Source: Verrucomicrobium sp. (GTDB taxonomy: Bacteria > Verrucomicrobiota > Verrucomicrobiia > Methylacidiphilales > UBA1321). Taken from it: a stretch of 64,000 nucleotides of DNA. The stretch is taken from the NCBI GenBank assembly GCA_017849585.1, contig JAFIGT010000039.1:62001-126000 (forward strand). The letters are read 5' to 3'. The translations under genes were made by a program, and so were the position numbers. Below are positions 11,323 to 64,000 of the stretch, piece by piece (position 1 is the first letter of the stretch; the number at the start of each line of letters is the position of its first letter). The notes beneath the pieces are model-generated. The model was given only the letters and a program-made list of their open reading frames with translations, searched no databases and was not told where the DNA came from.

Positions 11323-11357
11323 GGGATGTCCGTAATTCCAAAGAAAGGATTCTAGTT

Positions 11358-11999
11358 ATGGAAAAAATCAAAAATTTCTTCGGTTGTTTGGCGGCTGGCG
11401 TCAGTCTGTTGTGTACGCTGGGTGGTAATCTGGCGTGGTCTGCGCAGAATCTCGCTCGCATTGATATTATCAGCAGCCCGCGGGACGAAATTGATCTGGA
11501 GATTGGCGCTTGTTCGTCGGGCGCGAAGGTAATGCATGCGGACTGGCTCAATGCGGGTCAGAAAACCCGATTCGTCACGGCTCTTTTTCCCACGACGACA
11601 GATTGGCAGGAAGGTTTCCTGACGATTACTCCTTCGAAGAGTGGTAATGTTTCGCTTACTCTGATGGGGACATATTTGGTGGAGGATCCAGCCACGAAAA
11701 AAATCCGGTGCATTCAGATCGATTTTGATGATGTGCAGGCTGACAGTATTGTGATTAAAAACGGTGGCTTTGAAAAAAAGGAGAATGAAAATCGACCTGC
11801 CTCTTGGAGCGTGGCAGATCTTCAATCCGGAAATCCACCTGTCGATGACTCCAATCGGGCGAGGGTGGAAGGTGGCAGCGCGAAGGCTGGATCACATTTT
11901 ATACGGGTCTGGCATAATTCCCGCATCTCTCAATCGTTCTTTGTAGAGGCCAAAACACCGATCACCATTCGCTTTTACTATCGCCTGAGTGATAAATAA
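11358..11999 (+). CDS. Secreted protein of unknown function with NGGFE motif
   Basis: A 213-residue protein with a signal peptide ending near AWSAQ. I do not recognise a family over its whole length. The second half begins with IKNGGFE and has SWSV and GSHFIRVWH further on. This pattern, start of a domain with N-G-F-E and later an AGSHFIRV strand, is common in CBM4/9-like beta-sandwich domains. There is no membrane anchor or PEP-CTERM tail. AAAGGA sits about nine bases before the ATG. It lies between the PEP-CTERM gene and the GH-A hydrolase on the same strand and is probably cotranscribed with them. Confidence 0.75.
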   Translation: MEKIKNFFGCLAAGVSLLCTLGGNLAWSAQNLARIDIISSPRDEIDLEIGACSSGAKVMHADWLNAGQKTRFVTALFPTTTDWQEGFLTITPSKSGNVSLTLMGTYLVEDPATKKIRCIQIDFDDVQADSIVIKNGGFEKKENENRPASWSVADLQSGNPPVDDSNRARVEGGSAKAGSHFIRVWHNSRISQSFFVEAKTPITIRFYYRLSDK

Positions 12000-12048
12000 T
12001 CAGGTCGAATGTCGGTATGATTTGGCTCTCTCTTGCCTGGTTGCTCTT

Positions 12049-14706: not shown

Positions 14707-14719
14707 AAGAACGAGAAAT

Positions 14720-15382
14720 ATGACCACCACGGGCTCAAATACGAATCAATACGGGGTGGGGTGGCGAAGTCCAGAGCCGACTTGTCGCCGTACAGCTTTC
14801 ACCTTGATCGAATTATTGGTCACGATATCGATCATTGGGATCCTGGCTGCACTGGCGCTACCTGCTTTCAGCTCTGCTCGGGCCAGGGGGAAATCCCTGC
14901 AATGTCAGGCGAATTTGCGGCAGATCGGGGTGGCGATGACTGGCTACCTTAGCGACAATAACCAGGAGTACCCCCGGGCTTACAATGCCACATCAGGCGC
15001 CACCACCTGGATGCAAAAACTGGCTCCTTACGCGGGGATTCCAGAGAATCAAATGGGACCGGCGCCACTCAAGCGTGCGATAGGGATTTTTCTCTGCCCG
15101 GAGTATCGACCGGCTGGTCGTGAGGTGGCTTACGCTCTGAACTATTCAATCGATCCAACACAAATCTACAAATCATGGAACTACCGTCCCTTGAGCGTTT
15201 CCGGAGCGAATCTTTTTCTGATTGTCGAAGTGGCGATGAATTCAGACCTTTATTCACCGAATCGGGATGGTGAGGTGGCGAAACGTCATCCAGCATCTTC
15301 GGCGAACTATCTGTTTGTCGATGGCCACGTGGAAAATATCAAGGGTCAAGTACCATCTACGGACCCGAGATGGACTCCCTGA
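14720..15382 (+). CDS. Type II pseudopilin-like protein (GspG-like, FVDGHVE C-terminal motif)
   Basis: A 220-residue protein with a prepilin N terminus. A short basic leader precedes A/FTLIELLVT, with the expected Glu at +5 and a long hydrophobic helix ending near PAFSSAR. The residue before the cleavage point is Ala, not the usual Gly. The C terminus has HPASSANYLFVDGHVE, close to the H-X9-DG pattern common in Verrucomicrobiota, Lentisphaerota and Planctomycetota. Such proteins are processed by prepilin peptidase and assemble in the inner membrane or in a pseudopilus. It follows the GH-A hydrolase by 13 bases. A secretion or display role for that enzyme is a reasonable inference but untested. 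Confidence 0.85.
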   Translation: MTTTGSNTNQYGVGWRSPEPTCRRTAFTLIELLVTISIIGILAALALPAFSSARARGKSLQCQANLRQIGVAMTGYLSDNNQEYPRAYNATSGATTWMQKLAPYAGIPENQMGPAPLKRAIGIFLCPEYRPAGREVAYALNYSIDPTQIYKSWNYRPLSVSGANLFLIVEVAMNSDLYSPNRDGEVAKRHPASSANYLFVDGHVENIKGQVPSTDPRWTP

Positions 15383-15516
15383 ATTTGGCGAGGGTTCTCG
15401 TTACCGCATGAGTTTCTTCATTTGGCAGGAACGAATTGTGCCTGGCAGAAAAAGGCTCGATCTTTTCTTCCATCTGTTATGATGGTCCATGGCTTGTGCG
15501 CGATGGTGCTGACTCT

Positions 15517-16545
15517 ATGAGCGAAAACCGAACTCCAATCCTGGCGGACGTGGCGAAATTGGTGGGCGTGGCGATTGCCACGTGTTCAATGGCCTTGCGG
15601 GATGATCCACGGATTTCGGCCGCCACGCGCAAGCGGGTCAAGGAGGCGGCCAAGACAATTGGCTATGAGCCCGACCCCTTGCTTGCGGCATTGGTGACGC
15701 GGCGTCGGCAGACGAAGCGCGTGTACGCCAATCTGGCGACGGTGATGGATGATCGCTGGCTCAAGGAAAAGCGTCAGGAATGGGCGGAATTATTGAACGC
15801 GGGAATGCAACGCGCCTGCGGTCAGCTGGGTTATCATCTGGAAAATCTTTACGTGTTGCGTGATCTGGGTGGGGGCAAGGATGGCGATCGGATTTTTCGC
15901 GCACGCGGCATCCAGGGATTGATTTTGCTGCCGACGCCTGATGGCTGCCTCGATTTTGAGATTGATTGGAGTCGCTATGCGGTCGTGACGATCGGAAATA
16001 CCACGACCAGTCAGCCTTTTCACCGCATTGCCACGGACGCCTTTGCGGCGATGAGTCTCGTGTGCACCAAGCTGAAGGAATTGGGCTATCGCAGAGTAGG
16101 GCTGGCGAATTGGATGCCGCTGGAGCGCCGATTGCGTTACGAGTGGCTGGGGGCCATGACGAAGGAACAATATTTGCCCGGCGGGTTGAAGGTGGTAACT
16201 CCCCATCTGCCCATGGAATTGACGAAAACCGGCTTTCTCGACTGGGTTCGCAAAGAGAAACCGGAGTGCGTCGTGACGGGCAATGAGGATATTCCAGAAT
16301 GGTTGGAGTCGGGAGGGTTCAAAGTGCCGGATAAAGTCGGCGTGGCTTTCCTGGGAAAAGACACGATCGCGAAATCAAAGGCGGCGGGCATTTTGCAGCA
16401 TATGGATATTCTCGGCGAATGCGCGGTCAAGCAACTGCATGCCATGCTGGCTTGCAGCGAACGGTCATTCCCGGGGGTGCCTCGCGAAATTCTGATTTAT
16501 CCCCAGTGGGGGGATGGTTATACCTTGCGGTCGCAGGGCAAATAA
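15517..16545 (+). CDS. LacI-family transcriptional regulator
   Basis: A 342-residue regulator. Residues about 6-30 form the LacI helix-turn-helix (ILADVAKLVGVAIATCSMAL), followed by the hinge segment DDPRISAATRKRVKEAAKTI. The rest is a periplasmic-binding-protein-like sensor domain. The phrase YEPDPLLAALVTRRR after the hinge is characteristic of a Verrucomicrobiota LacI subgroup. I chose the ATG at 15517. The longer frame from 15436 adds residues that precede the normal start of the DNA-binding domain. The gene ends the first PEP-CTERM/GH-A module and probably controls it. Its 3' end overlaps the convergent GH20 gene by 28 bases. Confidence 0.9.
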   Translation: MSENRTPILADVAKLVGVAIATCSMALRDDPRISAATRKRVKEAAKTIGYEPDPLLAALVTRRRQTKRVYANLATVMDDRWLKEKRQEWAELLNAGMQRACGQLGYHLENLYVLRDLGGGKDGDRIFRARGIQGLILLPTPDGCLDFEIDWSRYAVVTIGNTTTSQPFHRIATDAFAAMSLVCTKLKELGYRRVGLANWMPLERRLRYEWLGAMTKEQYLPGGLKVVTPHLPMELTKTGFLDWVRKEKPECVVTGNEDIPEWLESGGFKVPDKVGVAFLGKDTIAKSKAAGILQHMDILGECAVKQLHAMLACSERSFPGVPREILIYPQWGDGYTLRSQGK

Positions 16546-19010
16546 CGAGCAGGATTCAGACGCTGCAGTGCCCGGTCGATATGCTCGGGAACACAGCGGC
16601 CCGCATAGGTTTTACGATAGTTCGATTCAAATCGATGGAGGAGCACCGGCAAAGATGGCCCACGGCGTTTTGTGGCTAGTTGAATGGACCGCGTATCTTT
16701 CCGACCGGTGATTGCCACGAGAATAATATATCCTGCGGCATGGGTGGAGCGGAGGACGATACGGTCAATGGATTGGTCCGGATGCGGGTTGATCCATGGA
16801 GCCAGGTAAAGCATGCGGCGTCCCAGATCGTGCGCGTTGCTAAAGCCCTGCCAGGCGACAAGAGCTTCAGCTGGCGCTTCCTTACCCATGTTCCAATCAC
16901 CAACATGGGTATCGGCCACGATGGGCATCAGGTTCCGGCTCCCGTTGGTGTAATGAATTTCGTAACAGGCGATCGCTGTCCCAGGTGCTGCATAGGCGGC
17001 CGTATGAAAGAAAAAAAGGCGATTAAATTTCTTCCCTTTTAATGGAACGGTAGCGATCTCCGCTCCATTGGGATTGTGCTCGCCTTGAAGCAAAATGGCA
17101 TTGGATTGACCACGCTGATGATCGCTAATCTTCAAGGTGACGCCATGGGTGCGATGCTTGCCCGGCTTGAGCGCAAGATTGGTACCCGTGAGGGCCGGAA
17201 TAACACGCTGGGTTCGACCGTTGCAAGCACCAGTGAGATCAATCGGAAAATCCTTTCCTTGGCCAAGTTGGGGCAAAAGTCTGGCGGTGGCTTGTCTTCG
17301 AGCGGCGGAGCGTAAAGCAGCCATATCAAGAGACGGTTCGATGACTTCGAGCAATTCTCGATTGCGCTGACAATGCTGCTTTGTCGTCTTCCAGAAGGTA
17401 CGCAACGATTTCTCCAGTGTTGTAGTTGGGAGCGCTTCGGTGACGCGAAATTCTGGTGCGTGCTGAGAATAATTTTGCGCGTCGTAGTAGTTCACGGCCT
17501 TCGCGAAGCGACTGCCCGAGCCAAGATAGAGAGCATCGAAACGCTGGAGATATGATTCGATCGATTCGTCTCGCGGATGCCAGGAATAATCGCCTGCTGC
17601 GGCAAGGTCAGTCCAGGCCGTGAGGAGGGAGGCAAAGGTACTCCAATAGGTGTGGATGAGACCGCGCCCGCCAGCGGCTTTGACCCCCTGTGCCATCGAC
17701 TTGGCATTACGAATGCGACTATGAAACCCGGCGAAAGGGAATTCCTCGACCACCGGACTCCCCGCGGAGGCTCCAAGAGTTTCGAATCCTTGATCTTGAA
17801 AAAAGCGCAAATAGGGCCACGGCGTGAAATCCGGCTTCGTGGAACGTTGAAACCAGTAGGGTTGGTAGAGCTTGCGTAGATGACGCGGGATGGAGGGCAG
17901 ATCCTCGCGAAGTAGTTCCGTTGGCAATCCGTGTCCGATTTCCCATTTTTTGGCATCGGTACCCCAATAGTTCCAATACATGATGAGAGTCTCGCGAGGG
18001 TAATCGGCAAGACGCTCTGGATGGCTTGTCAACATGTCGTGCCACATCATCGGGCGACGACCCTGCTTCAGCATCCAGCCAATGAGCTCGTTATAATAAT
18101 TGAAGAAGAGGTCGGCAAGTTGTCCGCGGTCGGCAAATTTCTGGCAACGCGGGCAGAGTTTGTTGAAGCGGAATACTTCGTCGCCAGTGATGTTAACGTA
18201 TCGGGCATCGGAGTGGACATCGAGCACCTCTTGCCAGAGGTCCTTGATGAATGCTTTCGACTTCGGATTGCTGGCGCAAAGCTCCATGCTGGATGTGGGT
18301 ACTTCGCGCAGATGTTTGAGCGAGGGGTGGCAGAGGTAGTGTTCCTGATGCCCGAGCGAATCGACTGTCGGTATCAATTCGATAAAATTCTGCCTGGCTG
18401 TGGCAATGAGATCACGACATTGATCCTTAGTCAGTGCGGACGGGATGGCGATGAAGGGATATTTTTCCCAGGAAAAACTGCCATCATATTCGATTAGAAA
18501 GTAGTTGAACTTGAAGGAGGCAAGTTTCTCCAGAGTCTCCTTCAACTTTTCATAAGGCGGCATATGGCCACTTCCGAGAGTGAGGTGAACGCCTCGCATT
18601 TCGAGATCCGGCCAATCCAGCAGAACACCGCAAGGCAGGCGGTCGGACTGGACCAATAATTGTCCGAGTGTTTGCACTCCATAGAAGAGGCCGATAATGG
18701 TTTCCGCTTGGATGAGAATTTGATGCCGAGTGATTTCAAGACGATACGCTTGTTCGCGAAGGACTGCGGGAACGCTTTGGGGCAATCGTAGTGAGGAGAC
18801 GATTTGCACGCTCAATGTAGCGTTATCGCTGGTCTCCAATTGCCGCCAGCCGCAAGGGAGTCGACGATTCAGCAAATGCCGCACTCTAGAATCGCCGATA
18901 TCCCCTGCGACGCGCCATTTGCTCGGACTCACGAAAGAACCACTCTGTCTTTGAATATGTCGTGGTAGCGGAATCAGATTTTCGAATGAAACCACGGAAT
19001 GACTTTTCAT
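16518..19010 (-). CDS. GH20-family beta-N-acetylhexosaminidase-like protein
   Basis: An 830-residue protein without a clear signal peptide. The N-terminal part (about 1-130) has the GH20b fold pattern, including AYRLEIT and GLFYGVQTLGQLL. The catalytic barrel starts near PDLEMRGVH. The family's acid pair appears as D277-E278 in NITGDEV, where most GH20 enzymes have HIGGDE, so two flanking positions differ. GH20 enzymes remove terminal GlcNAc, GalNAc or their sulfated forms by substrate-assisted catalysis. The C-terminal 250 residues look like a beta-sandwich and are not assigned. It is the last gene of a minus-strand group with two Gfo/Idh/MocA-type proteins. Cytoplasmic location and action on imported oligosaccharides are inferred. 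Confidence 0.82.
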   Translation of the reverse strand: MKSHSVVSFENLIPLPRHIQRQSGSFVSPSKWRVAGDIGDSRVRHLLNRRLPCGWRQLETSDNATLSVQIVSSLRLPQSVPAVLREQAYRLEITRHQILIQAETIIGLFYGVQTLGQLLVQSDRLPCGVLLDWPDLEMRGVHLTLGSGHMPPYEKLKETLEKLASFKFNYFLIEYDGSFSWEKYPFIAIPSALTKDQCRDLIATARQNFIELIPTVDSLGHQEHYLCHPSLKHLREVPTSSMELCASNPKSKAFIKDLWQEVLDVHSDARYVNITGDEVFRFNKLCPRCQKFADRGQLADLFFNYYNELIGWMLKQGRRPMMWHDMLTSHPERLADYPRETLIMYWNYWGTDAKKWEIGHGLPTELLREDLPSIPRHLRKLYQPYWFQRSTKPDFTPWPYLRFFQDQGFETLGASAGSPVVEEFPFAGFHSRIRNAKSMAQGVKAAGGRGLIHTYWSTFASLLTAWTDLAAAGDYSWHPRDESIESYLQRFDALYLGSGSRFAKAVNYYDAQNYSQHAPEFRVTEALPTTTLEKSLRTFWKTTKQHCQRNRELLEVIEPSLDMAALRSAARRQATARLLPQLGQGKDFPIDLTGACNGRTQRVIPALTGTNLALKPGKHRTHGVTLKISDHQRGQSNAILLQGEHNPNGAEIATVPLKGKKFNRLFFFHTAAYAAPGTAIACYEIHYTNGSRNLMPIVADTHVGDWNMGKEAPAEALVAWQGFSNAHDLGRRMLYLAPWINPHPDQSIDRIVLRSTHAAGYIILVAITGRKDTRSIQLATKRRGPSLPVLLHRFESNYRKTYAGRCVPEHIDRALQRLNPARYLPCDRKV

Positions 19011-51451: not shown

Positions 51452-52261
51452 CTAGCACAGCTTCCGGCGGCTGCCGCGCAGGAGCGTGGCCAGACCAAAG
51501 GCCAGCAGGGCCAGCGACTGTGGCTCCGGCACGACCGTCAGCAGCGAGACGTTATCAATCGCGTACGAGGTTGAACCTGACACGTTATTGAGAAAGCCCA
51601 AAGAAGCCAGTCCATTGCCATTATTCAACTGGAAATAGGAGAAGGCTGTGGGCGTCGACATGCTCGAACCCACCAATCCGTATGAAAGCGTGTAAGATCC
51701 CGCCGCGAAATCCACTGCGAGGCTCAGATTATAGGCATTTAAGCCAACGCCACCCGCGCCCACAGTCAGATCCGAGCTGGCCAAGAGATTCACGGCGATA
51801 TCTTTCCAGCCCAAGGAAGCCGAGTAAGCTTGGAGATTGAGATAGCCGGCACCATTGGTCCCTTGAACCGCACGGAAATTCAGGGAAGGCGTTCCACCGC
51901 CGGTTTGATTGAAGTTGAAGTTCAGGCTGCGGGTGGTCGCACTGCCGGGATCGGTGGCGGCGAAGACGAAGTCGAATTGGAACTGCTTGGGATTGCCCGC
52001 CGTAAGGCCCGGAGCCAGTGTATCGCTCGTGCCATAAGGAACCACGGCTGCATACGTTGATCCACTCACCAAACCAGCGACGCGAGTTGGTGCGATCGTA
52101 CTGCTCAAGGTACTCCAATTAGTTGGCGTGCCACGGTTTTGCGCATCTAGAGTTCCCCAATTTTCGAGGCCTCCATTGGTGATCATCTGAATCTGCGCGT
52201 GCGCGGATAATCCCGCAACAAACAGCAGTAGTGTGGTGAGGATGGCGGTGGTGGCTTTCAT
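51452..52261 (-). CDS. Secreted PEP-CTERM protein
   Basis: A 269-residue exported protein. The signal peptide ends AHAQ. The mature domain starts with MITNGGLENWG and ends with YAIDNVSLL, a beta-sandwich with the edges of a CBM-like fold. The C terminus is VPEPQ, a hydrophobic stretch, and RGSRRKLC. It is a paralogue of the unanchored protein at 52428-53153 (shared pattern DPGSATTRSLN against DPGTSMARSFN, and NFRAVQG against NLRLVQG). GGAG lies nine bases before the ATG. A strong promoter lies upstream at 52313-52341. Confidence 0.9.
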   Translation of the reverse strand: MKATTAILTTLLLFVAGLSAHAQIQMITNGGLENWGTLDAQNRGTPTNWSTLSSTIAPTRVAGLVSGSTYAAVVPYGTSDTLAPGLTAGNPKQFQFDFVFAATDPGSATTRSLNFNFNQTGGGTPSLNFRAVQGTNGAGYLNLQAYSASLGWKDIAVNLLASSDLTVGAGGVGLNAYNLSLAVDFAAGSYTLSYGLVGSSMSTPTAFSYFQLNNGNGLASLGFLNNVSGSTSYAIDNVSLLTVVPEPQSLALLAFGLATLLRGSRRKLC

Positions 52262-53157: not shown

Positions 53158-54732
53158 TTATCGGGGTTGAAGGGTGGAAGAAGCGGTCGATTCTGTCAGG
53201 TTGACGTAGCGAAATTCTAGGCCTCCCTCGTCTTTGCGTTGGGATTCCTTGGTAATGTGGGTGATCGGCGGCAGGGCACGGGCCTTCCCGCCGAGGGTGA
53301 CCGTTACGGCTCCCGCGTTTACGGACCCCAACACACCATACGACACTCCGGAGGGGAGGGCAACCGTGTCGCCACCTTTGAGTGCGAGTGTGGTTGGCGC
53401 CTTGACGTGGGCCCAATAGAAAGCCTTGGGCGCATACGCCGGCGATTCGACGAACGATCCCTCATGCGTCAGATCCGCCTTCAGCTTTCCATAACGCGGC
53501 GACTTCGTCGTCACCTGATCGGGGATGCGCAGCGGATACGCTACGATAACGGTATCTTTCGTGGCTTGGGGAGCTTGACCGGTCTTGAACCACTCGTTGT
53601 AGTAAGCGAAAACGCGCAGCAGGCAATCGCCTTTGGTGGCTGTCGGACCGACATCGCTTTCCTCCTCGTAATCATTCCACGTCAACACGAACATCCGTTG
53701 TGCATTGGCTTTCAGCGCATTGGCGTAGGTCTCATGGATGCGGCCGAAATTCGGTTCCGTATAGGCCACGTTGCCCCGATAGTAGCCGGGACTCACTGTC
53801 CATAGATAGGGAACAGTGAAGGCCTTTTGAAAAATCTCTTGCTCCTTCATGCCGTCCAGTGGAGATGCCGGACTGAACATGTAGACGCCGTCGGCAATTT
53901 TGTTCCATTCACGTACGAGATCATGCGGCCGGATATCCGCGATGAAGAAAAACTTTTTACCCTCGGCGCGAAGTTCCTGCAGAACCTGTCGCCAGCCCGC
54001 ATCCGGCATGGGAGCGCCCGGTTGTGGCGCGGCGCGTTGATGATCCTTGTAGCAGTCGCTCCCGAAATGAATGATCACGGGCCGTCCGTCAATTTTCCAC
54101 AACGCGGGGGAATCCGGCGTTAAATCAAGCGCCCCCGTCAAAGATCGCTTCCAGGCGGCAACGTCCAGCGTGCGGATCTTTCCTCCGGTCTCGCCAGAAA
54201 AATTCCAGATATCCGGATTCAGTGCGAGCTTCATACCGAGTCTCTCCGCTTCCGGCAACCAGGTCAGGAAGGTTTTGAGTCCGGCCAGTGGTGCATTGCT
54301 TTCGGTCAAGGGCTGCGCCGGATCATAATCCGGCAAGGGTTGCATATCGAACGTCACGATATCGAATCCCGCGCTTTTCATCTGGCAGAGTACGACGCGC
54401 GCGGCGGCTTTCTCCAACTGATAATACTCCGCGCTGCCGACTGCGGGTTCCAATTCCGGGAACGTCACGCCGGGTACGAGGGGATAATTCTGAATGCCAC
54501 TGCTCTGTTTGGCGCGCTGATAATCATACCCTTTTTGCTTCCAGGTCTTCGTTCCATTCAAAGCGCCCACGGGCGAATACCAGGAAATATAACTGACGGC
54601 CACCTCGCGTTTGGGGCTGTTTGTGGGTTCCTCGGCATGCAAGCGCGCTTGACAGGCGCTCGAGAGCAAGCAGGCGAGAACGAAGCAGGTAGGTCGAAAA
54701 GACCGCGAAAAGCGAAGGCTCATTCTTAACAT
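53158..54732 (-). CDS. Secreted GH71/GH99-like glycoside hydrolase
   Basis: A 524-residue exported protein with an N-terminal signal that includes cysteines (LACLLSSACQA), so a lipoprotein is possible but the lipobox is imperfect. The barrel has VAVSYISWYSPVG, FDIVTFDMQPLPDYD, LGMKLALNPD, RPVIIHFG, and LTWNDYEEESDVGP; the last resembles the WNDYxE end motif of GH71 alpha-1,3-glucanases and the related GH99 group. The final 90 residues form a beta-sandwich. The substrate is not shown by the sequence. It begins the minus-strand group and diverges from an AraC gene. Two ATG codons (54732, 54723) are possible starts. Confidence 0.72.
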   Translation of the reverse strand: MLRMSLRFSRSFRPTCFVLACLLSSACQARLHAEEPTNSPKREVAVSYISWYSPVGALNGTKTWKQKGYDYQRAKQSSGIQNYPLVPGVTFPELEPAVGSAEYYQLEKAAARVVLCQMKSAGFDIVTFDMQPLPDYDPAQPLTESNAPLAGLKTFLTWLPEAERLGMKLALNPDIWNFSGETGGKIRTLDVAAWKRSLTGALDLTPDSPALWKIDGRPVIIHFGSDCYKDHQRAAPQPGAPMPDAGWRQVLQELRAEGKKFFFIADIRPHDLVREWNKIADGVYMFSPASPLDGMKEQEIFQKAFTVPYLWTVSPGYYRGNVAYTEPNFGRIHETYANALKANAQRMFVLTWNDYEEESDVGPTATKGDCLLRVFAYYNEWFKTGQAPQATKDTVIVAYPLRIPDQVTTKSPRYGKLKADLTHEGSFVESPAYAPKAFYWAHVKAPTTLALKGGDTVALPSGVSYGVLGSVNAGAVTVTLGGKARALPPITHITKESQRKDEGGLEFRYVNLTESTASSTLQPR

Positions 54733-54797: not shown

Positions 54798-55667
54798 ATG
54801 CGCCAAGTGGAAGAAAAGGCCCGATTCCGTAAATTGCTCGACGAGCTCTTTCGCCACTCCTTTCCCAGTAAGGTATTTCTGGTCAGCCAGCCGGGGACTG
54901 TGGCGGGTCTCGAGCAATCTGCGACCTACGACGGACCACGTGTCAGCGTGTGCCTGTTCGGTACGGCGCGCTATTCGGTGCGTTCGGGAAACAATGTGAG
55001 CGAAGTCCAGCTCAAGCGTGGCGAGGCTATCTACGCGCTGCCCGATTGCGTGATGGAGCCGCACGCACAATCCAGTTACCTCTCCTTTGGTATTGTCTAT
55101 TTGCCGCAATTCACCCGGCTGCTTCTAGCGCGAAAGCTGCTTTCCCGTAAAAATAATTTTCAGCACAACTTCCTCATGAGCTACCATAATCCGGCCCAGC
55201 TCGATGAAGATGGTCAGGACATTGCGCGCTTGATCAGCCGTTGTCACAAGCGGAGCCCCGATAGCCTCTATCTTACCCGCCTCGTGCAAACCCTCCTCAT
55301 TCGCACGCGGGAAATGCTCGACGACAAACCTGCCGAAATGCCGCATGGTAAGGCGTATTTTACCTGGCAAGCCGCGTGTCAATTTGTACACGAACACCTG
55401 CATCAGCCGATTGGTCGCGACGATGTCGCTCGCTTCCTTGGCCTGCATGCCAATCACGTTTCGCGGCTTTTTGCGCAGTTTGAACATGGCTCCTTCAATC
55501 AGCATGTGCTGGAGTCTCGGCTGGAGCGCGCGCAGGCCCTGTTGAAAAATCCGGCGCTCAATATTTCCGAGATCGCTCGCGCCAGCGGTTTTTCCGACGC
55601 GAACTATTTCATTCGTTGCTATCGCAAGAAATACGGGAAATCGCCCGGGAAAGCGCGTGCAGCCTGA
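54798..55667 (+). CDS. AraC-family transcriptional regulator
   Basis: A 289-residue AraC protein. The N-terminal domain includes VCLFGTARYSVRSG and LKRGEAIYALPDCVMEPHA, a cupin-like sensor. The helix-turn-helix units are RDDVARFLGLHANHVSRLFAQ and ISEIARASGFSDANYFIRCYRKKYG. It faces away from the GH71-like gene across a 65-base gap with a direct repeat, and probably controls the whole hydrolase group from 54.7 kb down to 43.4 kb. Its 3' end converges with the Verru_Chthon cassette. Confidence 0.92.
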   Translation: MRQVEEKARFRKLLDELFRHSFPSKVFLVSQPGTVAGLEQSATYDGPRVSVCLFGTARYSVRSGNNVSEVQLKRGEAIYALPDCVMEPHAQSSYLSFGIVYLPQFTRLLLARKLLSRKNNFQHNFLMSYHNPAQLDEDGQDIARLISRCHKRSPDSLYLTRLVQTLLIRTREMLDDKPAEMPHGKAYFTWQAACQFVHEHLHQPIGRDDVARFLGLHANHVSRLFAQFEHGSFNQHVLESRLERAQALLKNPALNISEIARASGFSDANYFIRCYRKKYGKSPGKARAA

Positions 55668-55681: not shown

Positions 55682-58246
55682 CTACGGGCGTAGATTGCGC
55701 GAAAAATACTGGCTCACTTTTCCCGTCTTGTCCCGAATGAGCAAGGTCTCGGTGCGTTGCTCCGCCTGTACGATGATGTTCTGATTGGAGGTTTGCAAGA
55801 TGGCCTGCCCAATGGCATGGACCGTGTAGGCGTTGCTCCGCACCTCCATCAGGTCGATCACTCCGCGTACCAACGCCTCGCTGTCTTCTCCTGTATCGGC
55901 GACCGAGGCCAGTTCGACTAATTCTCCGCGTGACAGAAAAAGCTTATCGAATCCGTAATCGCGGCCCGCATTGGCTGAGCTGGATTTGGTGAATTCGGAA
56001 ACTGCGGTTTGGAGCGTGTCGGCTTGCGAGCTGTTGATCTGAGCGGTCGCGGCATTGTCCTTGTAAGCGTCGGTGACGGCGGCGAGAAATCCATTCCGGC
56101 GTTGCACGAGAGAAGTGCCGCTGGCATCGAGAAACGGCACCAGCGCGTTCTTGCGAAAGGCATTCAAGTTGATCAAACCGCCCCGCCCGACATCCGCGTC
56201 GCGCACGTAGTAGGGGGTTGCGCTCGACGTGGAAATTTTGTACGGCGTGCAAAAAAGATCCAGCAGCGCCCAATCGGGCACCTGCAAACTCCTCTGGGGT
56301 TGGAGCCGCACCGTACGAAATGGCACCCCGTTGGTCGAGCATTCCACTCCTGTGTGCACAAATCCCAGCTCCGCGACCGACTCCACCACGCCATTTAGGT
56401 TTCCAGGCTTACTCGCAGCAGGAGGAAAGCGCACGCTCACAGCGCTGAGAGCTCCCGAATTGTCTGTATCCTGCTGGGCATTCAGACCTGCCTTGGCGAT
56501 TCCCTTCACGGGGGGCGTCCCAAAGGTGTTGCCACTGGCGCGTGCAACCCAGTCGTTACTGTTTTTATTTACGTTCGGATCGCTCACTTCGATGGATGGG
56601 ATCTGTGTCTTATCGAGATTTGTAGTATCTAGGACGTAACCAAGTCCAACGCTTCCCGGAAAAGCCCCTTGAGTGGCGACGTCGATCCGCACTGGATCCG
56701 ACGATTTATCGGTCAGGGCGAGGCGTAGATTCAATCGGTTTGGCCGTGCCGAGCCATTGATTCGAAAATTCCGACTGATGACCCGGCATTGACCGGCGGC
56801 AAGTGTCCGGTTCGCGGCTCCACCTAATTCGGTATCGGTAATTAATTCTGAGACATTGGGTGTTGGTGTGCCCGGGTAACTGGCATTAATGCCATAAAGA
56901 AAAATCAGATTGTATTGTCTCAGATCCGGAATGGAACTAATCCCGTAGTTTTCTGGTAGGTAGATTTCGATGAAGTAAGTGGCGTTGTAGCCATCCGTAT
57001 TGCTCGCGTCTTTCGTGGAATTTTTTTCGACCCAAACAGCCACCTCTGTGATGCGAGGTCCCCGCGTATTACCGAAAATTCCTTCGGCCTGATTGTTGAG
57101 TCCCACCACGATTTTTCCGGGTGCGGCCACGTACCCCCGGATAGGCTCGACGATATCCATGGTGCTTTCCCGTGCGCGCACGTATTCGATGAGATTAAGG
57201 GCGATCTGTTCGGGTCGAACGGGTGCGAATTTTTCAGCGAGGCTATGCCCCGGATTCATGGGCCAGTCCGTCCGATTGAGTAGCGCGGTGATAGTGGAGG
57301 TGACGATTGCGAGTTTGTCGCTGGCGGAGGCTCCCGCGATGTTGCTGCGGAGTCCGGGATCGGCGCTCTCGTCCTTGAGGATGTTTAGATAGGGCTGCGA
57401 ACCGGCCATGCTTCCCCGTGTCGTCAGCATGAGGCGAAGTTCGCCGAAGAGATTGAGTTCCGGGGCGCGATTGAGGATGGAGAGATCGAAGCGATTCGTA
57501 TCGATCAACGCGCTGATCGTGGCATCCACCGCCCGGGCTTCATCGAGGGAATGGAAATAATGCTTGCCGGTGCGCGTGCTCTTGAGTGTGTCGGCGAGGC
57601 TTGCATTGAGGCTGGGAAAAATCAGCAGGTTCATTTGCGACGGATCCCAGCGTGGCACGGTAACGGATCGACGCCATGCCGTGTTAAGGTTGATTTTTGC
57701 TCCCTCATCGTCCGACCAAAAGGCGAAGCGTCCCACGAGCGGATTGCTTTTGTTATAGGCAGGAACCGTTCCGTTCGAAGCCACCAGAGTGCCATCCTGC
57801 CGTAGGTAGATCCAGCGGACCTTCAGATTCACATTCTGCGCCGTGATCAGGTTGCGCGAGGGGGTGAAGAGATTCGGCAGATTCAGATCGACTGCAATGT
57901 CGGTTGAGTCGCCGCTTTGCGCAGCTCCGGAATGAAGCTCCACATTTTTTAAGTCCGTCGCGGTGATGGAGGTGCCGCTGAGCGTCGCGCGGGTGATGCG
58001 ACCGGGCTGCGAAATCCAGAGGCTGCCCGTCTGCGTGCCTTGTGCGATTCTCGCGGCAGCCACGTCAACGGCCGCCTGGGCGAGATGTTGTGCGCGCACG
58101 CCCTGCAAGTGGGCGTCTGCCGAAAAACGTTCCGTGCGCATGCTGGTCAGGAAGCCAACCACAAGAATCGTGATGAGACTGATGAAGAACAGCGACATCA
58201 CCAGCGCGACACCTCGTTGAGAGGAGTTGAAGAAGTGACGGTTCAT
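55682..58246 (-). CDS. Verru_Chthon cassette protein A, GspK-like minor pseudopilin
   Basis: An 854-residue protein. The N terminus RGVALVMSLFFISLI followed by RTERFSADAHLQG and QHLAQAAVDVAAARI matches GspK/PilX, including the lack of the +5 glutamate. At about residue 180 the phrase AFWSDDEGAKINLN matches the DExGKINLN region of GspK. The long remainder is mostly beta-rich and I cannot place it. This is the protein known as Verru_Chthon cassette protein A. It is the last gene of a four-gene unit, and its ATG overlaps the preceding stop (ATGA at 58246-58243). It probably caps a pseudopilus, by comparison with GspK. Confidence 0.88.
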   Translation of the reverse strand: MNRHFFNSSQRGVALVMSLFFISLITILVVGFLTSMRTERFSADAHLQGVRAQHLAQAAVDVAAARIAQGTQTGSLWISQPGRITRATLSGTSITATDLKNVELHSGAAQSGDSTDIAVDLNLPNLFTPSRNLITAQNVNLKVRWIYLRQDGTLVASNGTVPAYNKSNPLVGRFAFWSDDEGAKINLNTAWRRSVTVPRWDPSQMNLLIFPSLNASLADTLKSTRTGKHYFHSLDEARAVDATISALIDTNRFDLSILNRAPELNLFGELRLMLTTRGSMAGSQPYLNILKDESADPGLRSNIAGASASDKLAIVTSTITALLNRTDWPMNPGHSLAEKFAPVRPEQIALNLIEYVRARESTMDIVEPIRGYVAAPGKIVVGLNNQAEGIFGNTRGPRITEVAVWVEKNSTKDASNTDGYNATYFIEIYLPENYGISSIPDLRQYNLIFLYGINASYPGTPTPNVSELITDTELGGAANRTLAAGQCRVISRNFRINGSARPNRLNLRLALTDKSSDPVRIDVATQGAFPGSVGLGYVLDTTNLDKTQIPSIEVSDPNVNKNSNDWVARASGNTFGTPPVKGIAKAGLNAQQDTDNSGALSAVSVRFPPAASKPGNLNGVVESVAELGFVHTGVECSTNGVPFRTVRLQPQRSLQVPDWALLDLFCTPYKISTSSATPYYVRDADVGRGGLINLNAFRKNALVPFLDASGTSLVQRRNGFLAAVTDAYKDNAATAQINSSQADTLQTAVSEFTKSSSANAGRDYGFDKLFLSRGELVELASVADTGEDSEALVRGVIDLMEVRSNAYTVHAIGQAILQTSNQNIIVQAEQRTETLLIRDKTGKVSQYFSRNLRP

Positions 58247-59049
58247 CGGTAGTTTTTTAACGCGACGGTAAAGGTGGCGATGGACGCCCCGCTCTTGATG
58301 GAGGCGGGCAGGGTATTAATGAAAGTTTCCGGCGTATCACTGGCACTGGCCAAGGGAATCGGACTGGGCGCGCGCTTGGCACTTACTTCGTCGAGAAAGA
58401 CGAGAGAGATTTTGATACACGCAGGCAATTGATTGGCGGGGGAGGTCTTGCGGGAATTGCCGAGATAGGCGGTGCCATCCTTGTTGTAAGCCTGCACCCA
58501 AAGACCAAGTACATTCTCCAGGAAGAGACCCCGGTATTGACTCGCCTTTGTCGCCGGAGCTACGAGATTGAGCATGCTGTCGCTGATCCATTTGTCCGGA
58601 TCGCTCGCATCATAAATCAGATAATTGGCGTCTGTCGGATTCACCAACATTCGACAAAGATTCGCTCGATTGCCGTCGCGGCGGATGAAATATCCCACCT
58701 CCGCGATATTGCCGCTCGAGGAATCGGTGGCTACGGGTGCCTGCCAGAAGATGGAGTGGGGATAATTAAGCGTCACGCTTGTAGGGTTGATTACCAGTTG
58801 CAATGCGGTGTCGGCCGTGTCGGGTGAGACGATCGCCTGCCGTAGTTCACGCCCCATGAAGGTGAGGGCCGACCGCGCGCGATTGCGATGTTGGTTTTGA
58901 CTCAGTCCTTTGGTCCAGACGCGGCTCATCTGGTCGGAAAGGCCCACCAGGATCAGCATCACCAGTAACAGCACTGCCATCGCGGCGAGTATTTCCACGA
59001 GAGAAAAACCAGCGCGGGAGCGTGAATGGTTACTTGGAGAGCGTTGCAT
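58243..59049 (-). CDS. Verru_Chthon cassette protein C, GspJ-like minor pseudopilin
   Basis: A 268-residue prepilin-like protein. A basic leader ends in Gly before FSLVEILAAMAVLLLVMLI, with Glu at +5. The following HRNRARSALTFMGRELRQAI parallels the GspJ segment ending ERDLRQAV. The rest is a beta-rich domain with YFIRRDGNRANLCRM and FLENVLGLWVQAYN. I take ATG at 59049; the frame opens with GTG at 59061, 12 bases further up. It overlaps the B gene by 20 bases and the A gene by four, so the cassette is translated as a unit. Confidence 0.88.
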   Translation of the reverse strand: MQRSPSNHSRSRAGFSLVEILAAMAVLLLVMLILVGLSDQMSRVWTKGLSQNQHRNRARSALTFMGRELRQAIVSPDTADTALQLVINPTSVTLNYPHSIFWQAPVATDSSSGNIAEVGYFIRRDGNRANLCRMLVNPTDANYLIYDASDPDKWISDSMLNLVAPATKASQYRGLFLENVLGLWVQAYNKDGTAYLGNSRKTSPANQLPACIKISLVFLDEVSAKRAPSPIPLASASDTPETFINTLPASIKSGASIATFTVALKNYR

Positions 59050-59482
59050 GCAGGACTTCACGATTGGGGCGTTTTTCCGGATCGGATACTGTCGTGGGCC
59101 AGCTGAAAGTGTGTGTGGTAAGTACTAGGTGACTGCCCAGATCCGCCACCTCGGTGCTCGAGTTCGGCAAGCGTCCCACCACTGCGCATTGATACAGCGA
59201 ACTCGTATTGGCCGCGATCAGCGGCTTGTCTGCTCCGTCGGTTTGGAGCTGGCCCTGATTGTCGAAAAAGTAATTCACTGGTGTCCCGACGACCAGCGCA
59301 TCCTTGCCCGACTGCAGGCGGCCGGTCACTTGCGCCATCATCGAGGCCAGCACGGTATCCGAGCCCGATTGTTTGCTCGCGATCAGTCCCACGCTCAGTA
59401 ATCCAAAAATGGAGACCATGGCAAACGAGACGATGCCGAGAGCCACCACCACCTCTACCATGCTGAAACCCGCGCGCCTCAT
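59030..59482 (-). CDS. Verru_Chthon cassette protein B, GspI-like minor pseudopilin
   Basis: A 150-residue protein. The short leader MRRAG precedes FSMVEVVVALGIVSFAMVS, with Glu at +5, as in GspI. The rest is small and contains a cysteine (YQCAVVG). The start at 59482 gives an ATGA overlap with the D gene (stop at 59479) and the correct prepilin leader. The longer open frame to 59827 adds unrelated arginine-rich sequence antisense-like to the D gene, and was rejected. Length fits GspI (about 130 residues). Confidence 0.88.
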   Translation of the reverse strand: MRRAGFSMVEVVVALGIVSFAMVSIFGLLSVGLIASKQSGSDTVLASMMAQVTGRLQSGKDALVVGTPVNYFFDNQGQLQTDGADKPLIAANTSSLYQCAVVGRLPNSSTEVADLGSHLVLTTHTFSWPTTVSDPEKRPNREVLHATLSK

Positions 59483-60075
59483 GGACGTTCGATTTTGGGA
59501 ATACCGGTATAGACGTTCAGGACGATGTCGTAGTAATTCGACGCCACGGCCGAATGATCCTGCACCAGTCGCAAAACAGGCATGGTGTTTGCCTTGATCT
59601 GCGCGCTCTCCATCGTGCCGTCGGCGAGGAAGACCTGGTAGGTGTAGTGACTCGCGCTGATCGTCTTTCCGGAATATTTCAGATCGCCGATGGCGGGCGA
59701 GAGGGTGGGTTTGTCTGTGACGAAGACGCCGCTGTTCGTGCTGTCCACGACCACCTCTGCGGGGAGGAGCGTCCACGGCGAAACCATGCTCCAAGTTTGC
59801 GTCCCCGACTTGTATTCGACGAGACAAAAGAGGCGGTAATCGAGCTTGGCGTCACCCGTGTTGATTGCCATCACCAAGGCCGTTGATGTGTTGCGCGAGA
59901 TTGAATTTTGTCGGGCTTGATTGGCCAGTTCAGCGATCTGGTTGCCGCTGTTCACCAGCTTTGCGGCGCGCAAGGAATTAATTGCCGGGAAGCCCACCGT
60001 GCCGATCAATGTCATGATTGCGATGGTTACCAATAATTCCGTCAGGGAAAAAGCGGCGTTCGTTTTCATGGGCAT
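59479..60075 (-). CDS. Verru_Chthon cassette protein D, GspH-like minor pseudopilin
   Basis: A 198-residue prepilin-like protein, first in the cassette. The leader MPMKTNAA precedes FSLTELLVTIAIMTLIGTVG, with Glu at +5. The residue before the cleavage point is Ala, where Gly is usual. The segment NSGNQIAELANQARQNSISRN matches GspH, where it reads LxxALxxARxxAIxRG. Possible starts are ATG at 60075 and 60069, and a TTG at 60093; none has a clear Shine-Dalgarno. The gene is followed by B, C and A in the order H-I-J-K of type II secretion operons. Confidence 0.88.
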   Translation of the reverse strand: MPMKTNAAFSLTELLVTIAIMTLIGTVGFPAINSLRAAKLVNSGNQIAELANQARQNSISRNTSTALVMAINTGDAKLDYRLFCLVEYKSGTQTWSMVSPWTLLPAEVVVDSTNSGVFVTDKPTLSPAIGDLKYSGKTISASHYTYQVFLADGTMESAQIKANTMPVLRLVQDHSAVASNYYDIVLNVYTGIPKIERP

Positions 60076-60143: not shown

Positions 60144-61514
60144 TTAGGGCGTGAGGCTCAAACTTTTCCGTGCGACGGTCGTTTTTTTGCGCGGCGCGGG
60201 CTCGGGTGCTGTGGTGGGAGGAGGTTCCGGCGCGGCGATTTCCGTCGAGCGCATCCGGGCCAGTCGTTGCAATAATTGCGGGCGATTCAAAGCGTTCGGA
60301 TCCACGCTCTGCTCCACGCACATCGCGGCGGCCACGCCGACAGCTTCGCCTGTCGCGACGGCATCGCCGGTCACGCGGTAGCTGGCAAAGGCAATGTGAT
60401 CGCCCGAGATGCAGCGGCCCGCCATCATCAGGTTATCCACATCGCGAGCGACGAGACAGCCGAACGGAATATCATAGAAGGGGAAGAAGACGTGTGTCAG
60501 CCCCGTGCCTTCCTTTGGATCGGGATGATGGATGTCCGCCATGAAACGTACATGACAGATGCCGTCGTCGAATTTCTTGTTCGACTGCAATTCCTCTACC
60601 GTCAGATAATGATGGCCCCGGATGCGGCGGCTCTCGCGAATTCCAAGGAACGGTCCCGTATCCATCAGGTAAACGTCCTTCCAAGCCGGACCCGCGTGCT
60701 GACGATACAGTTCCACCAGTTGGCGAATCTCAGCGCGTCCTTGGATTTCAGCGCGCGTCAGATTACGCACATCAATGCCGCTTCCGTACAGATGCGTGGC
60801 CATCAACATGAACACACCCGGTTGGCCCGGCTGCGGAAATAACGTCACATCGCCATAGCTTGGCTCTACTCCGGCTCGCCGCGCGATGTCCAGCAAGGGC
60901 TGGATATGAACGGTCTCCCCCGTGTAGCCACCGATGCGACCGTAGAGTGTCATCGGCTGCACTTTGCCATCCTTTGGACGACCGTACTCAAATGCGCAAC
61001 CGGCCTGAGCCGCCACGTCGCCGTCGCCCGTGGTGTCGATGACCACTTTGGCTTTGATGAATTCGCGACCCGATTTGCTTTCGGTATAAACGCCCGTCAC
61101 GCGGCGACCCTCGCGCGCTACGGCGGCAACGGAGGTATAAAGTTGGACCTCGATACCTGTCTCGATGATCATCTCGTCGAGCAACGTCTTCATCGCTTCC
61201 AATCCATACACCGGCCAGTTCGGCCACTGCTTGCAATACACCGCCGCGCCGCGTTCTTCCAAACGGCGGCGAATCTCGCAATTCAGTCCGTCCTTATGTT
61301 CCGTATCGATCAGGATCGTCAGCGCGCCCGCCGTCCACACACCGCCGAGGAACGGGTGTCGCTCCAGCAAGAGCACTTTCGCTCCGGCGCGAGCTGCGGT
61401 GAACGCAGCTGCGATTCCGGCGGGGCCACCTCCGCAGACGAGGACATCGGTTTCGCGGACAACGGGCACCTGTCGTGCGGGTTCAAAGATGGTGGGAGAA
61501 GCGGTGGGGTTCAT
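60144..61514 (-). CDS. FAD-dependent oxidoreductase (FAD_oxidored type)
   Basis: A 456-residue flavoprotein. The FAD loop VLVCGGGPAG (residues 24-33) is followed by RHPFLGGVWTAGALT, then DTTGDGDVAAQAGC and a late DVDNLMMAGRCISGDHIAFASYR, all typical of the FAD_oxidored family found beside glycan-degrading genes. No signal peptide is seen. After about residue 425 comes an unusual tail rich in Pro, Glu and Thr (PEPPPTTAPEPAP) with basic residues (RKKTTVARK), which is not part of the fold. The start at ATG 61514 avoids residues from the longer frame to 61583. Substrate unknown. It is 68 bases downstream in position from the pseudopilin cassette start and reads in the same direction. Confidence 0.83.
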   Translation of the reverse strand: MNPTASPTIFEPARQVPVVRETDVLVCGGGPAGIAAAFTAARAGAKVLLLERHPFLGGVWTAGALTILIDTEHKDGLNCEIRRRLEERGAAVYCKQWPNWPVYGLEAMKTLLDEMIIETGIEVQLYTSVAAVAREGRRVTGVYTESKSGREFIKAKVVIDTTGDGDVAAQAGCAFEYGRPKDGKVQPMTLYGRIGGYTGETVHIQPLLDIARRAGVEPSYGDVTLFPQPGQPGVFMLMATHLYGSGIDVRNLTRAEIQGRAEIRQLVELYRQHAGPAWKDVYLMDTGPFLGIRESRRIRGHHYLTVEELQSNKKFDDGICHVRFMADIHHPDPKEGTGLTHVFFPFYDIPFGCLVARDVDNLMMAGRCISGDHIAFASYRVTGDAVATGEAVGVAAAMCVEQSVDPNALNRPQLLQRLARMRSTEIAAPEPPPTTAPEPAPRKKTTVARKSLSLTP

Positions 61515-61624
61515 AGAAATATGTAACGATTTAAATTTCGATAACCAAATCATCGCACTACGCCAGAGTAAATGATAGGGCACTTCTGAAACAAAAATAG
61601 GACTCTAGTAACAAAAGAGGTGAA

Positions 61625-64000
61625 TCAATTGCGAATGACGCGCACGCGCATGAATCGCTTGCTGTCAGTGCCGATGGGTTGCACGTCCTTGGCAACGATG
61701 GTTTCTATTCCCTCGACCGGTGTATTGTCCTCGACGTGCACCTGATTTTCCTCCTGCAGCGGATCCAGCGAGGTCCACGGGCCATTTGGCTCGTTGGCGA
61801 CTTCGACCCGAAAGAGGAGATCGGTGGCATTTTTATTGCGAGTGAAGGTGCACGTCAGGTAGCGGGTTCCATTGAGGGATTGCTCCTGCACATAGGGTAG
61901 GCTGGTGGGAGAGAGCTGCAGGGGGGTGCCGTTGCTGTCGCGTAGGTGATAACCCAGGGCGTAACGCAGCAGATTTGTCACCCCATCGGCCAGTGGTTGA
62001 TCCAAATCACCCGACAGACCGGCAATCGCCTCGGTTGAGCCAAAGTTAATCAGGCGCCAGTTGTTCAGGTTGGGAGCCACATACGGCGACGCCGCAACAA
62101 CAGTGCTGTATGTTCCCACATATGATGCATTGAACGGTTTGATGCGGAAGCGGTACGTCTGCCATTGCGGGGCTGTATAAACGAATTGCAGCGTCTCGGA
62201 ATTCACGGTGCTCACTGTGCTGTAATTCGCTCCATTATCCGAAGATACTTCGATCTGGTACGACGAAGCGCCGTCGACGGTATTCCAGTTCAAGACGATT
62301 TCTCCGGTGGCGGTTCCGGGATTTGCGGTGATCGCGGTAATCGTCGCCACGGGTCCCAACGTGAGGGTGATACTGACGGCGGCCGCTTCGCTCGTGGCCA
62401 CGCCATCCGTGGCGGTATAGGTAAACATATCGGTTCCGGTATATCCACCGAAGGAACGATACGAGTAGGCGCCGGTCGTAGCATTCACACTCACCGTGCC
62501 ATGGGCGGGAGCTTGCGCGATCGCGTAGGTCACTGTTTTTCCCTCGGGATCGACGGCGCTGACATTGCCCGTGGCGGGTGTATTGGAAAAAGCTGAAAGC
62601 GTTTTCGGAGCAGCCAGCGGAGGGAAATCCGCGGGAATAACCGTCAACAGCCGGAACGCATCGCGTTTGTTTCCCAGCACATCCGTCGCCACGACGGTCA
62701 ACGCATGAGTTCCCGCGGTGGGAGTAAACGTCCAACGCCACAAGGGTCCGGTCGTCAAGGCCCCCAACCACGTCGCGCCATCATAGAAATCCACCGACGC
62801 GAGCGCATTCGTCTGATCGAAATCCCGCGGGTCAATCTCGATGGGCACTGAAGTGCCGGCCGCCACCGAGTCCGCGAATAACGCGGGCGTGACGATGCGC
62901 AGCGCGGAATGCGTGGGGATGGCGCTGCGGGTGACGAGATCGGTGGACGTCATCGCGCGATAAATGCGGGCCGTTGTTTCGTCCGGCAACCACGAGGCGG
63001 TGCTGACGACTCCGGTGTAGCTCGCGTAGGGAGCGACCGTCGTGAACGAACTCGTGGCGCTCGGCGTTGTCGCGGACGAATAAGTCGTGCGATCCCCCAG
63101 CCATCCGGAAGTATCCGCGAGCGTCAGTAGCGTGGGAAAGGTTCCAGCCGTGGCCGTGGGGGAGGGTGCCATCGGGCGCGGGTAACGCAGTTTGACCACT
63201 TCCGCAATCCATGCCCAACCGGCCTCCCACGCCTGATTGCCGCCGGTGTTGTGACCTACATTCCAGTTCATGCAGAAGGCCACTTGCGCCCCCTGGCTGC
63301 GCCACCAAGTGAACATCTCCTGCGCTTTCAGGGGATTGGTGAAGGGATTGTTATCCACCGATCCGGGCACAAAGAGTCCGGGAACTTTTTTGGATGCAGC
63401 ACTCAGCGTGGGATTCGACCACTCGCCACCGCAAAACGGCACGAAAGCGATCACCCGCTCCGGCCAATTCCGCACGAGAAAACACGAATCGAAGGCTCCG
63501 CGCGAAAACCCGGCGATGGCCAGAGGCGCATTGGAAATTTCCGGGCGACCTGAGACAGCGGCCGCTTGGTTCAGCACCTCCTGCACGGCGGCTTTGATCT
63601 TGGCCGTATCGTTGCCCATCAGATTCATGCGCGCGCCCTGCGTGTAACCGATCAAACCGAAGCCCATCGCGCGCGCCGCCTCCTGCGCCACCAAATCATG
63701 TGCCAGGTAGCGATAGTCCGAGCCATCACCGGGCCCGATGAAAACAATGCCGCGAATGACCGGCTCCGTGGCGGGCAACCACAATCGAAAACTTCCCGAC
63801 TCCGTGCTGGTGGTCGTGCTATAGGTCGCGGTGAAAGTCCAAAACGGTTCCGCAAGAATCCGAGACGAATCGGCTTCGACGCGCACATTATCCCATGAGG
63901 TCAAATTGGTGGTGCCTGCGGTTGATTCCGTGTACCGAATCGATTCCAGCATCAATGCCGAGTCACCGTTCGCGCCCCATTTCGAACGCACTAGTTGATG
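61625..64000 (-). CDS. Multidomain secreted esterase-like protein (N-terminal part outside window)
   Basis: The frame is open to the window edge, so the GTG at 63991 is probably internal and at least 791 residues are seen. The first about 40 residues look like the end of a beta-sandwich (SWDNVRV). An alpha/beta-hydrolase domain follows with GFSRGAFDS (serine near residue 166 of the visible part) and a histidine in NWNVGHNTGG. A cadherin-like Ig repeat (YTGTDMFTYTATDG) and a fibronectin type III domain follow, and the C-terminal region ends with a beta domain. This suggests an extracellular carbohydrate or xylan esterase. The precise family is uncertain. No PEP-CTERM tail is present. Confidence 0.7.
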   Translation of the reverse strand, partial: HQLVRSKWGANGDSALMLESIRYTESTAGTTNLTSWDNVRVEADSSRILAEPFWTFTATYSTTTSTESGSFRLWLPATEPVIRGIVFIGPGDGSDYRYLAHDLVAQEAARAMGFGLIGYTQGARMNLMGNDTAKIKAAVQEVLNQAAAVSGRPEISNAPLAIAGFSRGAFDSCFLVRNWPERVIAFVPFCGGEWSNPTLSAASKKVPGLFVPGSVDNNPFTNPLKAQEMFTWWRSQGAQVAFCMNWNVGHNTGGNQAWEAGWAWIAEVVKLRYPRPMAPSPTATAGTFPTLLTLADTSGWLGDRTTYSSATTPSATSSFTTVAPYASYTGVVSTASWLPDETTARIYRAMTSTDLVTRSAIPTHSALRIVTPALFADSVAAGTSVPIEIDPRDFDQTNALASVDFYDGATWLGALTTGPLWRWTFTPTAGTHALTVVATDVLGNKRDAFRLLTVIPADFPPLAAPKTLSAFSNTPATGNVSAVDPEGKTVTYAIAQAPAHGTVSVNATTGAYSYRSFGGYTGTDMFTYTATDGVATSEAAAVSITLTLGPVATITAITANPGTATGEIVLNWNTVDGASSYQIEVSSDNGANYSTVSTVNSETLQFVYTAPQWQTYRFRIKPFNASYVGTYSTVVAASPYVAPNLNNWRLINFGSTEAIAGLSGDLDQPLADGVTNLLRYALGYHLRDSNGTPLQLSPTSLPYVQEQSLNGTRYLTCTFTRNKNATDLLFRVEVANEPNGPWTSLDPLQEENQVHVEDNTPVEGIETIVAKDVQPIGTDSKRFMRVRVIRN

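Follow-up and report, generated by a model that had tools for sequence, protein, structure and literature searches.

Ten GspH-I-J-K-like prepilin cassettes in a Verrucomicrobium genome, candidate exchangeable tips for a shared machine

Background

It has long been asked how the tips of type II secretion systems (T2SSs) and type IV pili (T4P) choose their cargo or ligands. In M. xanthus, three clusters of minor-pilin and PilY1 genes serve one T4P core (PMC7541494). ComZ of Thermus thermophilus, a proposed tip receptor, is a tip pilin of GspK type into which a large domain is inserted, a DNA-binding beta-solenoid that precedes the last strand (PMC6561018). Verruconatronum alginivorum was reported in 2026 to induce a pulG-like pseudopilin together with an alginate cluster (PMC13274419). 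The same phylum, Verrucomicrobiota, carries four adjacent NCBIfam families in many copies per genome, Verru_Chthon A to D (TIGR02600, TIGR02598, TIGR02599 and TIGR02596). Their names carry no functional assignment, and no paper in the literature searched names them. Described here is a cassette of these four families in a 64,000-nucleotide stretch of Verrucomicrobium sp. DNA (the window; positions 62,001 to 126,000 of contig JAFIGT010000039.1, assembly GCA_017849585.1).

The cassette resembles the T2SS set GspH-I-J-K (XcpUVWX, EpsHIJK) in gene order, in the predicted folds of its J and K counterparts, in a K-like protein that lacks Glu at position +5, and in both INLN motifs of that protein. 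It differs in being encoded apart from any core, in having ten copies, in scoring below all equivalog cut-offs, and in a K-like protein of two to four times the length, whose two motifs are separated by an insertion. As in M. xanthus, several tip cassettes of equivalent gene order would be available to a single core, but here there are ten sets instead of three, PilY1 was not found nearby, and a GspK-like protein A with an internal expansion takes the place of PilX and a separate adhesin. Protein A and ComZ both join a GspK-like pilin domain to a large inserted region, predicted to be beta-rich in A, whereas the expansion of A lies between the two INLN motifs. The V. alginivorum genes likewise tie pseudopilins, in many copies, to a polysaccharide locus of a member of the Verrucomicrobiota, but they are single pulG-like pseudopilins (67 copies) and not H-I-J-K sets. 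Precedents thus exist both for several tip sets per core and for a tip pilin of GspK type that carries an inserted domain. New are the equation of Verru_Chthon A, C and D (and B by position) with K, J and H (and I), the anatomy of A, and the presence of ten copies against single cores.

Correspondence to minor pseudopilins

The cassette consists of four mutually overlapping open reading frames in the order D-B-C-A on the minus strand (window 60069-55682; Table 1). D and B overlap by 4 bp, as do C and A, and B and C by about 20 bp. All four proteins have a prepilin-like start. A first-pass annotation of this DNA had already recognized the arrangement, and the motifs that it quoted are confirmed: D carries QARQNSISRN, B has GFSMVEVVVAL, C has GRELRQAI, and A begins with RGVALVMSL, with no Glu at +5, and has DDEGAKINLN further on.

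That annotation equated the genes in order with gspH, gspI, gspJ and gspK. D, C and A do correspond to the minor pseudopilins GspH, GspJ and GspK beyond the N-terminal helix, and B fits GspI by position and by a weaker similarity. Profiles of 14-17 cassette proteins were compared by hhalign with profiles of 12-18 core-operon proteins from Verrucomicrobiota and E. coli K-12. In the resulting 4x5 matrix the best partners lie on the diagonal D-H, B-I, C-J and A-K. The D-H pair scores P98.9, and P79/69 over 128 columns once mature residues 1-30 are left out; B-I scores P97.8. On half-sample resampling the expected partner was best in 20/20 trials for C-J, 19/20 for A-K and for D-H, and 14/20 for B-I. 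With mature residues 1-30 removed and A restricted to its first 330 residues, these counts became 16, 19, 14 and 7 of 20. The pairings of D, C and A are thus stable without the helix, against the possibility, raised by the annotation itself, that nothing beyond it would be shared.

Family searches with homologues of the cassette proteins are consistent with this assignment to different degrees. For all 15 homologues of A, GspK is the sole NCBIfam pilin family matched, and 14 of 16 homologues of D match the GspH family TIGR01708. Those of B match PilV (12/15), XpsI (11/15) and GspI (5/15), and those of C are divided among ComGF, ComGE, HpsC and GspJ. PilX_N has no Pfam match in the window A protein and is matched by 4/15 of its homologues. 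Sequence searches of the PDB with the four profiles returned the helix only or nothing relevant, and were set aside.

The AF2 model of C (predicted local distance difference test score, pLDDT, 78.9; predicted template modelling score, pTM, 0.72) extends the correspondence to structure. Its closest matches by VIA are XcpW (5vtm, Z 12.6), TTHA1219 (5g23, Z 12.6), EpsJ (3cfi, Z 12.4) and GspJ (3ci0, Z 11.6), and the next unrelated fold follows at Z 4.2. The predicted structure of C is that of the GspJ fold.

Measured against existing families, the best NCBIfam match of each gene is the Verru_Chthon family of the same letter, all four adjacent. D matches TIGR02596 (E 2.9e-9, 37.3 bits against a curated cut-off of 70), B matches TIGR02598 (E 1e-9, 38.7 bits against 51.4), C matches TIGR02599 (E 9.5e-12, 44.8 bits against 256.5) and A matches TIGR02600 (E 3.5e-56, 190.9 bits against 332.3). 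Because all four fall below the curated cut-offs, the window cassette represents a divergent Verru_Chthon subfamily, a shorter form that it shares with three other cassettes of the genome. The N_methyl domain (PF07963) is over its cut-off in B and C and just under it in D (20.2 against 21.2). D also matches GspH PF12019 at 0.019 over residues 43-159. The T2SS equivalog cut-offs (TIGR01708, TIGR01707, TIGR01711 and NF037980) are not reached; the best of these matches is that of A to GspK NF037980 (E 7.8e-8, residues 10-84, 32.2 bits against 130). In line with the annotation, no T2SS or T4P ATPase or secretin is found in the window, nor is one found on its contig. Below the equivalog cut-offs and unlinked to a core, the window cassette is not assigned to the T2SS by membership. 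At the cassette, a promoter and terminator scan gave signals at shuffle level, and Rfam gave no match.

Architecture of protein A

The annotation also noted that the K-like protein is far longer than GspK. This is correct: mature GspK proteins of 12 core operons have 296-473 residues, and A proteins have 838-1,005 in A6 and more elsewhere. When the A model, which is of low confidence, is searched by VIA, four GspK/XcpX chains come out on top (Z 10.8, 10.7, 10.2 and 9.7), with the next match at 6.0. The best of them, GspK 3ci0_K, covers model residues 41-854, and the GspK/XcpX alignment begins at the first helix of A and extends to its final residue.

Two motifs are common to A and GspK, 'DE..KINLNTA' and a later 'INLN'. 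The first, FAFWSDDEGAKINLNTA in the window protein, is shared with FGLIDEASKLNLNTA in GspK of core T2SS operons L122/L124. In the second, G690 and N695 are invariant or near-invariant (A6). The distance between the motifs ranges from 516 to 874 residues among 17 A proteins, with outer parts of 192+/-22 and 177+/-21 residues. Because the flanks are nearly constant in length, the middle is variable, and both the fold match and the motifs are of GspK type, A is a GspK frame with a large expansion between its two INLN motifs, part of it a predicted beta-sandwich. Residues 361-600 of A have no similarity to the GspK profile. Beta-sandwich matches of residues 365-560 (archaellin Z 6.0, CBM3 Z 5.0; Z 4.6-6 over archaellin and cellulose-binding modules together) lie below the level of trust, and Foldseek matches of A to aminopeptidases and receptors, with E above 1e-3, were not believed.

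Ten cassettes in one genome

The genome (4.79 Mb in 43 contigs, 96% complete) contains exactly ten cassettes. A search with profile C gives ten matches at E 2.3e-58 or lower before a drop to 2e-6, and the count is supported by a search with A and by a prepilin scan. The order B-C-A is fixed in all ten, and A lacks Glu at +5 in every one. D is more mobile: it comes first in six cassettes, including that of the window, and last in two; one cassette has it between C and A, and in the remaining one it was not found. A is short (854-916 aa) in four cassettes including the window's and has 1,076-1,308 aa in the others; other cassettes of the genome surpass the TIGR02600 cut-off for A. None of the ten cassettes carries its own GspG, ATPase or secretin.

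The four-gene unit is also found in at least ten other Verrucomicrobiota loci, among them Chthoniobacter, Verrucomicrobium and metagenome-assembled genomes of Methylacidiphilales. Because it recurs ten times in this genome and again in these loci, the cassette is not a chance arrangement. Profile C was discarded as a cassette counter across 241 genomes, as it matches nearly every genome, including core J and other J-like pilins.

Prepilins are abundant in this genome beyond the cassettes. It encodes 99 prepilin-type N-termini, most of them on lone proteins of about 210-280 aa outside cassettes and cores, a pattern that resembles the 67 pulG-like genes of Verruconatronum (PMC13274419). In the window itself, positions 11358-15382 encode a small exported protein, a 905-aa exported protein and a prepilin with no cassette; the N-terminus of the small protein resembles that of one beside cassettes L075, L076 and L079.

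Candidate core machines

A tip cassette without a core might be served by a machine encoded elsewhere, and the annotation predicted a core T2SS or T4P with no minor pseudopilins of its own. For the T2SS this proved wrong. The core on contig 7 has the order E-F-x-G-H-I-J-K-L-M-x-D, with a complete set of minor pseudopilins. For the T4P it may hold. Tandem Amuc_1098-type secretins lie on contig 43, with what we read as a PilM-like gene, and two PilB genes and PilC lie on contig 7; no minor pilin set was seen beside these T4P core genes. PilX_N gives only weak matches in the genome, and those with E below 0.1 are all cassette A proteins. A third ATPase/GspF/secretin locus (L047, contig 3, about 116800-130600) has several prepilin-like reading frames of its own that scarcely match NCBIfam families, and a locus on contig 25 is Tad-like in our reading.

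Other genomes bear on the choice of core. G034 and G022 have B-C-A cassettes with a giant A and 'GKINLN', together with tandem T4P secretins; GspG is absent or weak, and full-length GspD was not found in either. In the eight genomes where A exceeds the TIGR02600 cut-off, GspG is present in all eight. A comparison of the presence and absence of A (TIGR02600) with that of GspG and Amuc_1098 across 241 genomes was dropped as evidence, because the weak Akkermansia-like matches to A are lone giants without B or C.

Two genes of T2SS core operon L073 (4698-5756 and 10883-11608) have no Pfam match and are candidate Verrucomicrobiota-specific parts; the latter adjoins gspD, a place where one might look for a GspC-like protein. 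Among Akkermansia-like genomes, those in which GspG matches are weak or absent (L129-L132, L144) carry a lone H-I-J triad without an adjoining K, and have giant K-like genes elsewhere. In G232, an Akkermansia-like genome, L099 contains three tandem giant prepilins (4609-8829, 9226-13404 and 13925-18142) of about 1,366 mature residues with identical N-terminal sequence; two are on one strand and one is on the opposite, a possible recombination or phase-variation locus. In the 1.7 Mb genome G108, which has no T4P secretin, gspD is interrupted by stops (C6:72220-73803) and the H-I-J prepilin genes are kept.

Proposed function of the cassettes

The cassettes are most likely exchangeable tip complexes used on a shared machine. 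The annotation is partly supported: its H-I-J-K reading stands, whereas its expectation of a core without minor pseudopilins fails for the T2SS and may hold for the T4P. In the best explanation, which we consider somewhat probable, each encodes an H-I-J-K-type minor (pseudo)pilin complex that would prime a filament of type IV pilins and form its cap, giving one machine ten swappable tips. Prepilin peptidase would process all four proteins; B, C and A would assemble with D beneath them; and the giant A would occupy the extreme tip because, as in GspK and PilX, it lacks Glu at +5. A machine encoded elsewhere would then extrude the complex on top of a shared major pilin, with a different tip from every one of the ten cassettes. 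The expanded A might bind the polysaccharide of its cassette's own locus, or carry an exported enzyme of that locus. In support, seven of ten cassettes are by raw count flanked by a glycan-active or sugar-binding protein over its Pfam cut-off, and a relative keeps synteny with these neighbours.

Several observations weigh against this explanation or parts of it. PilV is matched by homologues of B more often than GspI, and A-like proteins are also found without B and C. The A model has a mean pLDDT of 59, AF2 was trained on data that included GspK structures, and a plain Foldseek search of A has no GspK among the 50 rows listed. The GspK-like features of A point to the T2SS over the T4P, no PilY1/PilC Pfam match occurs among nine window neighbours, and prepilins outside the recognized families could serve the T4P. 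Finally, the hhalign similarity of B to GspI is gone once the helix is excluded. This loss, the similar disappearance of full-length A-K profile similarity after removal of 30 residues, and the PDB searches that yielded the helix or nothing relevant would suit four unrelated prepilins that share only the helix and stand in this order by chance. We consider that very improbable and largely refuted by the fold of C (Z about 12), the fold match of A to GspK, the D-H and C-J similarities beyond the helix, and the N-terminal third of A, which pairs with K even without it. It is also improbable, if less so, that the proteins act in structure or sensing as short free-standing pseudopili, or as complexes anchored in the membrane, without ever passing through a secretin. 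Neither a major pilin nor a core is co-encoded, and H-I-J sets without K stand alone in other families too, but ten paralogues have kept the prepilin signal, the B-C-A order and a K without Glu at +5, as a filament tip predicts.

Two machines compete as the client of exchangeable tips. The cassettes may be alternative T4P tip adhesins, used with the Amuc_1098-type secretins, PilB and PilC and each directed to a different polysaccharide or surface, a view that comes close to an even prospect. The structural kinship of C with the Thermus pilin TTHA1219 and the precedents of ComZ (PMC6561018) and M. xanthus (PMC7541494) agree with it, as do giant K-like proteins in genomes that have T4P secretins and no GspG match. 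Those giants, however, do not adjoin B or C, G146 has a giant K-like protein with GspG but no Amuc_1098 match, A is nearer to GspK than to PilX, and no PilY1 gene is a neighbour. A role as alternative pseudopilus tips of the contig-7 T2SS seems less probable, though a real possibility; the cassettes would then take turns with the H-I-J-K set of that core, and the expanded GspK would recruit specific exported glycan enzymes into the secretin. The GspK-like sequence and fold of A, including the motifs around the alpha-domain, speak for it, as do the constant company of GspG in the eight genomes and the predominance, among the neighbours, of sugar-binding proteins or exported enzymes acting on glycans. 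A T4P client, with the tip as adhesin or receptor, is slightly favoured over a cargo-selective T2SS tip because the T4P core has no adjoining minor set and the T2SS has its own, because cassettes occur in G034 and G022, and because core GspK proteins are so much shorter than A.

More broadly, Verrucomicrobiota may have uncoupled the tip from the core. On this tentative view, about ten interchangeable H-I-J-K sets, each wired to a polysaccharide-use locus and each with a giant GspK whose own insert binds a ligand or cargo, would turn one T4P or T2SS core into a tool-changing machine for secretion or adhesion. A likely function is offered for four orphan families of which genomes in a major phylum carry many copies. 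Ten natural tip variants in one genome, most of them beside different glycan genes, would make the choice of cargo or ligand testable by cassette swapping, and the giant GspK with its expansion between motifs is a concrete target for structural work.

Genomic context

The window cassette is flanked by GH71, GH42 and CBM9 proteins. Flanks of the other cassettes include an alginate lyase with a laminin-G domain, GH38, GH42, GH2, CBM9 with F5/8, and CBM4_9. Regulators with N-terminal sequences like those of LacI, AraC, IclR or LysR often occur near cassettes.

Table 1. Cassette genes, landmarks of protein A and neighbouring genes in the window
Feature	Position	Strand	Remarks
Cassette protein D, GspH-like minor (pseudo)pilin	59479..60069	-	196 aa; alternative ATG at 60075
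Cassette protein B, GspI/PilV-like minor (pseudo)pilin	59030..59482	-	150 aa
Cassette protein C, GspJ/PilW-like minor (pseudo)pilin	58243..59049	-	268 aa from ATG; alternative GTG at 59061
Cassette protein A, giant GspK-like tip (pseudo)pilin (putative)	55682..58246	-	854 aa; no +5 Glu
First GspK-type motif in A	57677..57727	-	residues 174-190, FAFWSDDEGAKINLNTA
Inserted region of A, predicted beta-rich	56567..57154	-	about residues 365-560; without GspK counterpart
Second GspK-type motif in A	56162..56179	-	residues 690-695, GLINLN
FAD-dependent oxidoreductase	60144..61583	-	75 bp upstream of D; possible operon partner; PF12831 9.8e-102
Large protein with Big_9/cadherin-like domains	61625..63991	-	runs past window end; PF17963 2.6e-12
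GH71-like protein	53158..54732	-	PF03659 5.6e-10; next to cassette in L074 too
AraC-family regulator	54798..55667	+	convergent with A; PF12833 4e-18

The GH71-like protein is a candidate client or co-regulated enzyme of the cassette. The Big_9/cadherin-like protein has a 1264-aa counterpart in the relative L074 that is syntenic with the cassette there. Synteny of the cassette with its neighbours is seen in the relative Tous-C9LFEB, where A has 93% identity. A PEP-CTERM protein (window 51452-52261) adjoins the cluster of GH71-like and GH42-like genes.

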